NCBI RefSeq assembly: GCF_030127145.1
Contig: NZ_CP126158.1
Span: 1,178,001 to 1,242,000, forward strand
Direction: 5' to 3'
Length of the DNA: 64,000 nt
Source of the DNA: Halobaculum halobium
Lineage (GTDB): Archaea; Halobacteriota; Halobacteria; Halobacteriales; Haloferacaceae
Shown here: positions 17,890 to 20,102 of the stretch, one piece after another
How the letters are laid out: each line of letters opens with the position of its first letter
How positions within the stretch are numbered: the stretch's first letter is position 1
Translations under genes and position numbers: made by a program
Notes under the pieces: generated by a model
Database searches by the model: none
What the model saw: the letters and a program-made list of their open reading frames with translations, nothing else
What the model was told of the DNA's origin: nothing

Positions 17890-18216
17890 TCACTCTCCGC
17901 CGGCGACGAGGCTCCACACCGCCGTCACGCCCAGCAGGAGCGCCGGGAGGAACGGCAGCACGAGCATCGCCGCGAGGAAGCGGAAGCCGAGTTCGCCCGG
18001 CGCCGTCGGGCGGAGGTAGATGATCCCCGGGATGATGAGGAACGCGAGGACGACCACGGCGACCAGTACCCAGCCGGCGCGTCCGAGGTCGTCGTTCGCG
18101 TCCCCGTCGGGGTCGTCGGGGGAGGCCCGATCCGAGTCGTCGTCGTCGACGCGCTCGTAGCCGTCGCCGGTGTTGACGACGCGGCCGGAGTGGGCGGTGG
18201 AGTCCTCAGAGCTCAC
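17890..18216 (-). CDS. two-helix membrane protein, unknown function
   Basis: A GTG start at 18216 gives 108 residues: an acidic N-terminal half (DDDDSDRASPDDPDGDAND), then two hydrophobic segments at about residues 48-68 and 77-103. The GTG overlaps the upstream oxidoreductase stop by 11 nt, which favours it over an ATG at 18243 that would overlap more. I do not recognise the family. The acidic half is predicted to face the cytoplasm. Confidence 0.6.
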   Translation of the reverse strand: MSSEDSTAHSGRVVNTGDGYERVDDDDSDRASPDDPDGDANDDLGRAGWVLVAVVVLAFLIIPGIIYLRPTAPGELGFRFLAAMLVLPFLPALLLGVTAVWSLVAGGE

Positions 18217-19246
18217 TATCCGGCCTAACCACCACCTTCCCAAAGCCTTCTCGGTCCTCGATCATCTCGTGCGCCCGCGCGGCCTCGCTCATCGGGAGCG
18301 TCTCGCGGATCCGCGGCTCGAAGGTGCCGTCCCACACGAGTTCGAGCACGTCGTCGACCTCGCCGGGCGTCGCCATCGTCGATCCGATGACCTTGAGCTG
18401 GTTCCAGAAGATGCGGTTGATGTCCGTCTCCGGGCGTCCGCCGGTCGTCGCCCCGCAGGTGACGACGCGGCCGCCCTTCGCGAGGCTCTTGAGCGAGTCG
18501 TGCCACGTCGCCGCGCCGATGTGGTCGACGACCATGTCGACGCCGCGGCGACCCGTCAGGTCGCGGATCTCGGCTGCGAAGTCGTCCTCCTCGTAGTTGA
18601 TGACGTGTTCGGCGCCGCAGTCTTCGGCGTACCTGAGCTTCTCCTCGGTCGAGGCGGTGGCGTACACCTCCGCGCCGACGTAGTCGGCGATCTGGACGGC
18701 CGCGTGGCCGACGCCGCCGGAGGCGCCGAGCACGAGGATCTTCTCGCCGGGCGCGAGTTCGCCCTGCGAGAGGAGCATTCGCCACGCCGTCTGGAACACG
18801 AGCGAGGCGGAGCCGGCGACCTCCCAGTCGACGTGGTCCGGGACGGGGACGAGATTGTCCTGCGGGACGGCCGCCAGCTCGGAGTGGACGCCGCGCTGGT
18901 GCTCGCCGATGATCGAGAAGCGGACGCACTGTGACTCCTCGCCGTGACGGCAGAACTCACACTCCCCGCAGGAGACACCCGCAGAGACGGCGACGTGGTC
19001 GCCTTCCTCGAAGCGGGTGACGCCCTCGCCCGTCCCGACGACGACGCCCGCCGCGTCGGAGCCGGGGATGTGCGGCATCTCCAGGTCGACTCCCGGGAGC
19101 CCCTTTCGGGTCCAGATGTCGAGGTGGTTGAGCGCGCCAGCCTTCACGTCGATCAGCACTTCTCCCCGACTCGGGTCGGGGTCCGGGAAGTCGCCATACT
19201 CGATCACGTCGCGGTCGCCGTGCTCCGAGAACTGGACTGCCTTCAT
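18206..19246 (-). CDS. zinc-type medium-chain dehydrogenase / quinone oxidoreductase
   Basis: The 346-residue MDR-family protein has an N-terminal GroES-like fold, a structural-zinc cysteine cluster (CGECEFCRHGEESQC, near residues 93-107) and the Rossmann motif LVLGASGGVGHAAVQ near residue 170. It likely reduces or oxidises a small carbonyl, alcohol or quinone with NAD(P)H; substrate is not predictable. It heads a minus-strand group with the two-helix membrane protein and the hydrolase, and diverges from the Xre operon. Confidence 0.88.
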   Translation of the reverse strand: MKAVQFSEHGDRDVIEYGDFPDPDPSRGEVLIDVKAGALNHLDIWTRKGLPGVDLEMPHIPGSDAAGVVVGTGEGVTRFEEGDHVAVSAGVSCGECEFCRHGEESQCVRFSIIGEHQRGVHSELAAVPQDNLVPVPDHVDWEVAGSASLVFQTAWRMLLSQGELAPGEKILVLGASGGVGHAAVQIADYVGAEVYATASTEEKLRYAEDCGAEHVINYEEDDFAAEIRDLTGRRGVDMVVDHIGAATWHDSLKSLAKGGRVVTCGATTGGRPETDINRIFWNQLKVIGSTMATPGEVDDVLELVWDGTFEPRIRETLPMSEAARAHEMIEDREGFGKVVVRPDSEL

Positions 19247-19322
19247 GCGTGTCCACCTCTGCCACGCCGGGGGACTAAACCCTACTCCCCGCGGCGAACC
19301 GAAACCGATCGGATCGGCGACA

Positions 19323-19330
19323 GATATAAG
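19323..19330 (+). promoter_or_regulatory. TATA-like box of the Xre operon
   Basis: GATATAAG lies just upstream of the tandem palindromes. A start site about 25 nt downstream would fall inside them. Confidence 0.5.
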
Positions 19331-19337
19331 TCAGTGT

Positions 19338-19370
19338 GTAAAGTTTCCTTTACTGTAAAGCTCGCTTTAC
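19338..19370 (+). promoter_or_regulatory. two tandem palindromes, probable Xre operator
   Basis: GTAAAG-TTTC-CTTTAC is followed after one base (T) by GTAAAG-CTCG-CTTTAC. Both are perfect 6-bp inverted repeats with 4-nt centres, repeating with a 17-nt period. They cover the expected transcription start of the operon encoding an Xre-type repressor. Two dimers binding here would block initiation, so autorepression is the simplest reading. This is inferred from position and symmetry. Confidence 0.6.
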
Positions 19371-19387
19371 ATGCGGAGGGACACACG

Positions 19388-19468
19388 ATGTCACACACGA
19401 TCCCGACTCGACGGCCGAGAAGAACAGGAGCGCAGAACGATGCGACACCGACGGGTGGTCGCCGATGA
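19388..19468 (+). CDS. 26-residue Arg-rich leader ORF of the Xre operon
   Basis: ATG at 19388 is preceded by a good Shine-Dalgarno sequence (GGAGG, 8 nt upstream). The ORF encodes 26 residues beginning MSHTIPTRRPRR and stops with a TGA that overlaps the ATG of the next gene (ATGA). The peptide is basic and has no hydrophobic segment. It could be a coupling leader that loads ribosomes onto the membrane-protein gene, or a functional small protein. Confidence 0.5.
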   Translation: MSHTIPTRRPRRTGAQNDATPTGGRR

Positions 19469-19899
19469 CCGAGACCGGCGTCGGTTCCGCTGGTGCGCCC
19501 GGCGGGACATCGACAGTCGCCGCACGTCGACGCTATCGGCGGCTGCTGTTCGGCTCGATCGGCGTCGGGGTGGTCGCGAACGTCGCGCTCAGACTCCTCT
19601 CGTACCCCGTCGCGGCCGAGGCGGTCTACTGGGTCGGAATCGTCGGCTTCCTCGCGGTGTGGCGGTTCAGCCCCGTGACGCTGTTCGACGAGCGCGACGC
19701 CGAACTGGAACGGCACGCGAGCACCGTTACGCTGGTCGTAGCCGCAGTCGTCCTCGTGGTCGGCGCCTCCGGCGCGCGAACGCTGAGCGCGCTCGGGGTC
19801 TACGACGCACCGCCGTTCGTCAACGGCGTGCTGTACGGCTACGTCGGGCTGTTCGTCGTGTTCGCGGTCGCCTACGGGTGGGCCGCCAGGACACGATGA
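19465..19899 (+). CDS. four-helix membrane protein, DUF2178-like
   Basis: The 144-residue protein has four hydrophobic segments at about residues 27-46, 52-66, 88-105 and 121-140, with a conserved-looking DERDAELERHAS loop between helices 2 and 3. That loop and the pairing with a small Xre regulator resemble DUF2178-type proteins found beside YozG/Xre-like regulators. It is coupled to the genes on both sides by ATGA overlaps. Function of the family is unknown; a membrane sensor for the repressor is one possibility. Confidence 0.7.
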   Translation: MTETGVGSAGAPGGTSTVAARRRYRRLLFGSIGVGVVANVALRLLSYPVAAEAVYWVGIVGFLAVWRFSPVTLFDERDAELERHASTVTLVVAAVVLVVGASGARTLSALGVYDAPPFVNGVLYGYVGLFVVFAVAYGWAARTR

Positions 19900-20102
19900 A
19901 CAACGACGTGCGCGCCCGCCGCGAGGATCGGAACATGAGTCAGGCGGGGTTGGCCGAGGCGGTCGGCGTCACCCGCCAGACGATCAACAGCATCGAGCGC
20001 GGGCGCTACGACCCGTCGCTCGAACTCGCGTTCGCGCTCGCCGACTTCTTCGACTGCCGGATCGAGGCCCTGTTCGACCCCGACGGCGACGACGCGAGGT
20101 GA
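19896..20102 (+). CDS. compact Xre-family HTH regulator
   Basis: The 68-residue protein is little more than one helix-turn-helix: RRDRNMSQ-type helix 1, LAEAVGVTRQTINSIERGRY as helices 2-3, then SLELAFALADFFDCRIEALF. It matches the YozG-like Xre group, which bind DNA as dimers. The start at 19896 overlaps the membrane-protein stop (ATGA). The tandem palindromes at the operon start are the obvious candidate operator. Confidence 0.88.
   Translation: MNNDVRARREDRNMSQAGLAEAVGVTRQTINSIERGRYDPSLELAFALADFFDCRIEALFDPDGDDAR

Follow-up and report, generated by a model that had tools for sequence, protein, structure and literature searches.

Transcription regulators of bacterial type are common in archaea; to our knowledge, there are few cases in which one operator sequence can be traced over both domains and two promoter machineries. 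Work on lacticin 3147 immunity by McAuliffe et al. in 2001, to which PMC4239024 refers, is said to describe LtnR as a small PbsX/Xre-type autorepressor acting alongside LtnI and LtnFE, in an operon that reportedly comprises a small membrane protein and an ATP-binding cassette (ABC) exporter (ATPase plus permease). In Enterococcus faecalis, the 66-residue Xre repressor CylR2 sits on its promoter, and CylR1, a small predicted membrane protein with three transmembrane helices, is needed for induction (PMC3709268; PDB 1utx, 2xiu). The locus considered here is a 33-bp pair of tandem palindromes in the haloarchaeon Halobaculum halobium, within a stretch of 64,000 nucleotides (the window; contig NZ_CP126158.1, positions 1,178,001 to 1,242,000), which precedes an operon encoding a small membrane protein (MP) and a 68-residue Xre regulator. 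Judging from comparative sequence evidence, the element is quite probably the operator of this Xre, which would act as an autorepressor of CylR2 type alongside a membrane partner. Its parts, numbered from the first letter of the window, are:

19315..19323, plus strand: BRE-like element (resembling the recognition element of transcription factor B, TFB), CGGCGACAG, conserved in position in an alignment of 61 haloarchaeal loci
19324..19330, plus strand: TATA box ATATAAG; a TATA-like hexamer begins at -13 from the operator in 40 of the 61 loci
19338..19353, no strand assigned: candidate operator dyad 1, GTAAAG and CTTTAC around TTTC, GTAAAGTTTCCTTTAC
19354..19355, plus strand: predicted start of transcription at the dyad junction, with T at -1 and G at +1, from TATA spacing and the central T
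19355..19370, no strand assigned: candidate operator dyad 2, GTAAAG and CTTTAC around CTCG, GTAAAGCTCGCTTTAC; like dyad 1, part of a tandem kept in 61 of 63 loci
19465..19899, plus strand: MP, a DUF2178-like four-helix membrane protein of 144 residues with an invariant D75-E76 pair, candidate sensor or partner
19896..20102, plus strand: Xre, 68 residues, CylR2-like, with recognition helix RQTIN (residues 27-31)

The first-pass annotation of this DNA had reported two perfect copies of GTAAAG-N4-CTTTAC here, and both coordinates and sequence are exact; the distance of 17 nt given between them holds from start to start and not as a gap, which is a single T (19354). The copies sit in an AT-rich patch of a window with 69.6% GC. 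When up to two mismatches are allowed, the 64-kb window contains these two dyads only, against 0.08 expected from shuffles, and the 3.46-Mb genome holds no exact copy beyond them. Dyads with at most two mismatches are not enriched genome-wide (11 per strand, against 20 for the reversed pattern), and a whole-genome scan for a larger regulon found no second operator.

The surroundings of the tandem point to a promoter. ATATAAG ends 7 nt upstream of dyad 1, and in the operator-anchored alignment the only clearly conserved flanks are the BRE-like element (about -23 to -15, with C at -20, G at -19 and A at -16, each in 75-82% of the 61 loci) and the TATA box (-13 to -10), both of which look like the haloarchaeal promoter elements CGAAA and TTWT (PMC4983044). 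From the start of the TATA hexamer to the G of the tandem's central TG there are 30 nt, and the central T, read in gene orientation, is present in 61/61 loci; because this distance is fixed and the T is invariant, transcription is predicted to start at the dyad junction. The palindromes would thus cover the start, as had been expected, and the operon described downstream, ending in a compact Xre, is in place.

Xre can be expected with high confidence to bind the GTAAAG-N4-CTTTAC dyads directly, and it very probably represses its own operon. Each dyad would hold one Xre dimer, the half-site centres lying 10 bp, or one DNA turn, apart, and dimers on both dyads would block initiation of the MP-Xre operon. 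The proposal of an autoregulated switch is borne out in so far as the site covers the point at which transcription of the regulator's own operon is predicted to begin. MP, the constant partner, would most likely tune or relieve Xre upon an envelope-borne signal; the chances that it is itself the sensor are about even.

The conservation of the element was assessed by searching 170 genomes of the family with MP as query, which is present in 59 of them, and by examining 63 loci, in all of which Xre lies immediately 3′ of MP. Scored against the 25-position consensus GTAAAGNNNNCTTTACTGTAAAGNNNNCTTTAC with at most four mismatches, the tandem occurs in 61 of the 63, mismatch-free in 39, with MP identity as low as about 27%; this is the conservation upstream of orthologues on which the first-pass annotation had staked its proposal. 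Mean pairwise identity over the 61 loci is 95% for the 25 core bases, 53% for the two spacers and 29-32% for the flanks, and the contrast between core and flanks argues that the site is not conserved through shared ancestry of the neighbouring DNA. The exact dyad is found in 53 of the 59 MP-positive genomes, mostly in two copies each, and in only 2 of 108 others (p=4e-34), one of which turned out to carry a diverged MP-Xre pair (L099; individual loci are cited by such numbers). Across 391 genomes of the class, from 86 genera, a tandem with at most 3 mismatches of 24 was detected in 160 genomes and 55 genera, with no reversed control hit in any listed genome; it is perfect in Haladaptatus sp. 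DYSN1, and in Halalkalicoccus jeotgali B3 it has two mismatches and is joined by a third dyad. A chance palindrome is ruled out by the shuffles, the whole-genome counts and the class-wide reversed control.

Some copies of the module depart from this pattern. One locus (L041; G132:C2) may be a decayed copy, its Xre carrying Q28R and a run-on C-terminus and its operator three mismatches, and two further loci (L236, L240) have MP and the tandem operator with no adjacent Xre found, the MP-Xre pair being located elsewhere in those genomes.

At the protein level, Xre matches the HTH_3 helix-turn-helix domain (E 7e-18), and its structure model (predicted local distance difference test, pLDDT, 91.3) has strands near residues 2-3 and 60-61. 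DR_2454 and CylR2 are its nearest relatives both by fold and by sequence, which places Xre, by profile and model, in the CylR2-like subfamily of Cro/C1-type helix-turn-helix regulators. MP is modelled, at moderate confidence (pLDDT 73.7), as a protein of four helices, and a fold search with this model returned nothing significant. The DUF2178 label that MP had been given holds for its orthologues elsewhere, which carry that annotation (PF09946, predicted membrane protein), and not for the window protein itself, which scores 12.7 bits against a Pfam gathering cut-off of 22.8; the literature searched, with partial coverage, has no mention of DUF2178. The Asp-Glu pair is invariant in archaeal and bacterial MPs alike.

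The bacterial relatives were examined at 80 loci retrieved from a CylR2-like alignment search, which span Alpha- and Gammaproteobacteria, Bacteroidota, Chloroflexota, Acidobacteriota and others. Upstream of their MP-Xre operons lies a palindrome of the same 6-N4-6 build, GWMAAG-N4-CTTKWC, whose degenerate letters were picked post hoc from these loci; the controls are therefore the same pattern reversed and the remaining DNA of each locus. Exact matches number 67 in the upstream zones of 44 of the 80 loci, against one elsewhere in 221 kb and none for the reversed pattern, and 64 loci have a site when one mismatch is allowed. Searching 11 whole bacterial genomes with GTMAAGNNNNCTTKAC returned a single adjacent pair and nothing else in six, and an adjacent pair plus one further site in a seventh. 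The spacings between bacterial sites cluster at 21, 32-34 and 43-47 bp, or about two, three and four helical turns; a locus on plasmid pA40H1 of the actinomycete Arthrobacter (L275, 944-992), with three dyads at 16-17 bp spacing, comes near the haloarchaeal layout. In the first site of a pair the right arm reads CTTGAC in 43 of 53 pairs and is followed by A in 40 of 53, so that the -35 hexamer TTGACA is apparently part of the bacterial operator, and many loci have -10-like hexamers about 17 nt downstream of TTGACA. The inner dyad CTTTAC-T-GTAAAG, although the most conserved stretch in haloarchaea, was discarded as the binding unit in favour of 6-N4-6 for the dimer site, because bacteria keep the latter at other spacings.

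The recognition helix offers a more specific link between protein and site. RQA replaces RQT or RQS at residues 27-29 in twelve of the bacterial Xre proteins, which are of sphingomonad type where the records name them. Exact GWMAAG occurs in none of these 12 loci and in 45 of the 68 others (p=1.4e-5), whereas exact GTCAKG-N4-CMTGAC occurs in 7 of the 12 and in none of the 68, with a p-value of 2.5e-7 that is only descriptive because the pattern was read from those same loci. At base 5, about 90% of the half-sites of RQT/RQS loci have A, against 21% of those of RQA loci, in which the change is to G or T. Where Ala replaces Thr or Ser at residue 29, operator base 5 differs to match, and this favours direct binding of the site by Xre. 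The pairing of operator and Xre put forward at the outset is therefore upheld from several sides, namely co-occurrence, the class-wide footprint, the same site in bacterial relatives and the co-variation of helix and operator.

We consider it probable that Archaea and Bacteria share an operator code, in which one subfamily of CylR2-like Xre proteins reads G[TA][CA]AAG in both domains, the arrangement of the sites was adapted to each transcription machinery, the change from Thr or Ser to Ala at residue 29 rewrote base 5 in one lineage, and the output in both domains resembles a defence by export and hydrolases. In haloarchaea, tandem dyads at 17 bp would block the start site used by TATA-binding protein (TBP) and TFB; in the bacterial relatives, the same half-site would form dyads that contain the -35 TTGACA and are spaced near whole helical turns.

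The response part of this proposal comes from gene neighbours. Extra haloarchaeal tandems precede genes for an ABC ATPase with a permease of about 580 residues (L107, L113-L116, L120, L229), for a DUF3887 alpha/beta-hydrolase lipoprotein (L106, L109, L112, L116, L120, L229) and for beta-lactamase-like serine hydrolases (L123, L237). A hydrolase of the last kind immediately follows MP-Xre at L118, and a serine hydrolase lies 3′ of the pair in Halalkalicoccus jeotgali. Gene strings in bacteria are similar, MP-Xre-alpha/beta hydrolase-ABC ATPase occurring in Dyella and Anaerolineales loci (L147, L162, L188, L201) and MP-Xre-hydrolase at L157 and L194. In genomes with extra operators, Xre probably also controls the ABC exporter and the secreted hydrolases, and the module probably serves in the response to envelope stress or antimicrobial peptides, a role suggested by what these extra operators precede.

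That Xre represses rather than activates is suggested by where the sites lie. Whether regulation is positive or negative does not follow from binding by itself, and the BRE and TATA elements are imperfect at some loci, which would suit an Xre that activates or toggles between activation and repression, for instance by recruiting TFB or RNA polymerase with MP as co-regulator. However, haloarchaea have their sites 3′ of TATA, covering the predicted start, and the bacterial ones contain the -35 and are often on or beside the -10; both placements are typical of repressors, and activation is improbable. Two small proteins from overlapping, co-transcribed genes with a conserved operator and a patchy distribution also recall a toxin-antitoxin module, in which MP would be toxic and Xre would both repress the operon and neutralise it. 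We regard this as decidedly unlikely: MP matches no toxin family, whereas a type II system would include a recognisable toxin, Xre has no additional antitoxin domain, further copies of the operator stand before exporter and hydrolase genes in some genomes, and there are operator-bearing MP genes without a neighbouring Xre (L236 and L240).

The remaining alternatives concern what reads the palindromes. In a single genome, the location of the site next to an Xre gene could be a coincidence, the true ligand being another, more global regulator. Over many genomes the presence of the site tracks that of MP-Xre, most genomes confine their sites to the MP-Xre operon, and operator base 5 covaries with Xre residue 29, which makes a foreign regulator very unlikely indeed. 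The least probable reading, with hardly any likelihood left to it, takes the dyads as hairpins in the 5′ leader RNA (an attenuator or stability element): each could fold into a 6-bp stem capped by a loop of 4 nt, but haloarchaeal changes include one compensatory case against 39 one-sided ones, 30 of which break a pair, the third pair is mismatched in 30 of the 67 exact bacterial sites, and transcription is predicted to start only after dyad 1. With departures from the palindrome one-sided in haloarchaea and bacteria, the hairpin reading was rejected.

Several observations weigh against an operator of Xre with this reach. The tandem is missing from two of the 63 haloarchaeal loci (L061, and L067, where one dyad is left), and 4 of the 68 non-RQA bacterial loci have no site even when one mismatch is allowed. 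Archaeal and bacterial MP profiles align with modest support (hhalign probability 52%, E=1.5e-4), and the neighbours of the extra sites at L122, L124 and L225 fit the list of hydrolases and exporters poorly. The residue-29 contrast is limited to one bacterial order, which makes ancestry a partial confounder; this is softened by three Sphingomonas loci of the same order with RQS-type helices (L158, L165, L191), each of which retains one exact GWMAAG-type site. Finally, the DUF2178-Xre pairs of methanogens mostly lack this operator.

The gene pair itself recurs outside the haloarchaea, with a small Xre near DUF2178 in 30 of 30 fetched loci, mostly non-haloarchaeal. The helices of the non-haloarchaeal pairs (L241-L270) mostly differ (RQTIH, RQTIL, RQTII, RRETIV) and the GTAAAG-type operator is mostly absent from them; their own operators may extend the code. 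An extension of the present operator to methanogen-type pairs was not adopted: no more than 3 of the 7 that have an RQTIN helix, and few of the others, show a related site. Two plasmids carry variants. Haloferax lucentense plasmid pSVX82-2 (L273, 868-3195) has an MP-Xre pair with helix RQTIY and only one dyad, a weak one; nearby are a MarR regulator and a gene whose annotation reads halocin C8-like, which may link the pair to archaeal bacteriocins. On Halobacterium salinarum R1 plasmid PHS1 (L274, 1102-1698), a small Xre is immediately preceded by a gene of some 131 codons that bears the annotation ISH7A transposase and, judged from its position, may be a misannotated partner; no operator was found there.

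Two other features of the window adjoin the element. A divergent gene for a zinc-type alcohol dehydrogenase/quinone reductase-like protein (18206-19246) borders the same intergenic region as the operator, and a short open reading frame precedes MP:

19388..19468, plus strand: 26-residue open reading frame overlapping the start of MP by ATGA, putative in-frame-deleted remnant of a second membrane protein

As MP and Xre also overlap by ATGA, the three form a translationally coupled operon. Sister species have, in place of the short frame, a 133-residue membrane protein with an FDERD motif, full-length in L006, L010, L011, L014 and L017 and reduced in L005, L007-L009, L012 and L013; in-frame shortening thus recurs in several relatives (e.g. 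L012 compared with L014). The idea that this protein is a close paralogue of MP was dropped, as the alignment is limited to the FDERD stretch.

The archaeal tandem operator, its spread, the bacterial half-site, the embedded -35 and the residue-29/base-5 switch appear to be new, no earlier description of any of them having been found in a literature that was covered in part. With them, a common and uncharacterised gene pair (MP plus an Xre of about 65 residues) gains a predicted operator, a natural specificity variant suggests which Xre residue reads which operator base, and the genes that share the operator (exporter and secreted hydrolases) give a first functional clue for DUF2178-like proteins.

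Among known systems, the closest solved structure is DR_2454, a PbsX-family protein of Deinococcus radiodurans (PDB 9k3w; E 1e-32, template modelling (TM) score 0.85-0.90), for which neither function nor operator was found in the literature searched. CylR2 belongs to the same Xre subfamily (profile E 1e-23, fold TM score 0.85) and likewise has a small membrane protein encoded alongside, but it controls another operon in a Gram-positive bacterium, whereas the present Xre would act on its own operon, in an archaeon, through a tandem operator over the predicted start. MP-Xre may thus work like CylR2/CylR1, the subfamily membership being read from sequence and fold and the likeness of the systems from analogy. 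The proposed extended regulon of haloarchaea resembles the LtnR operon as described in combining a regulator, a membrane protein and an ABC exporter; it differs from that operon in including secreted serine or alpha/beta hydrolases and in having no peptide target known so far.
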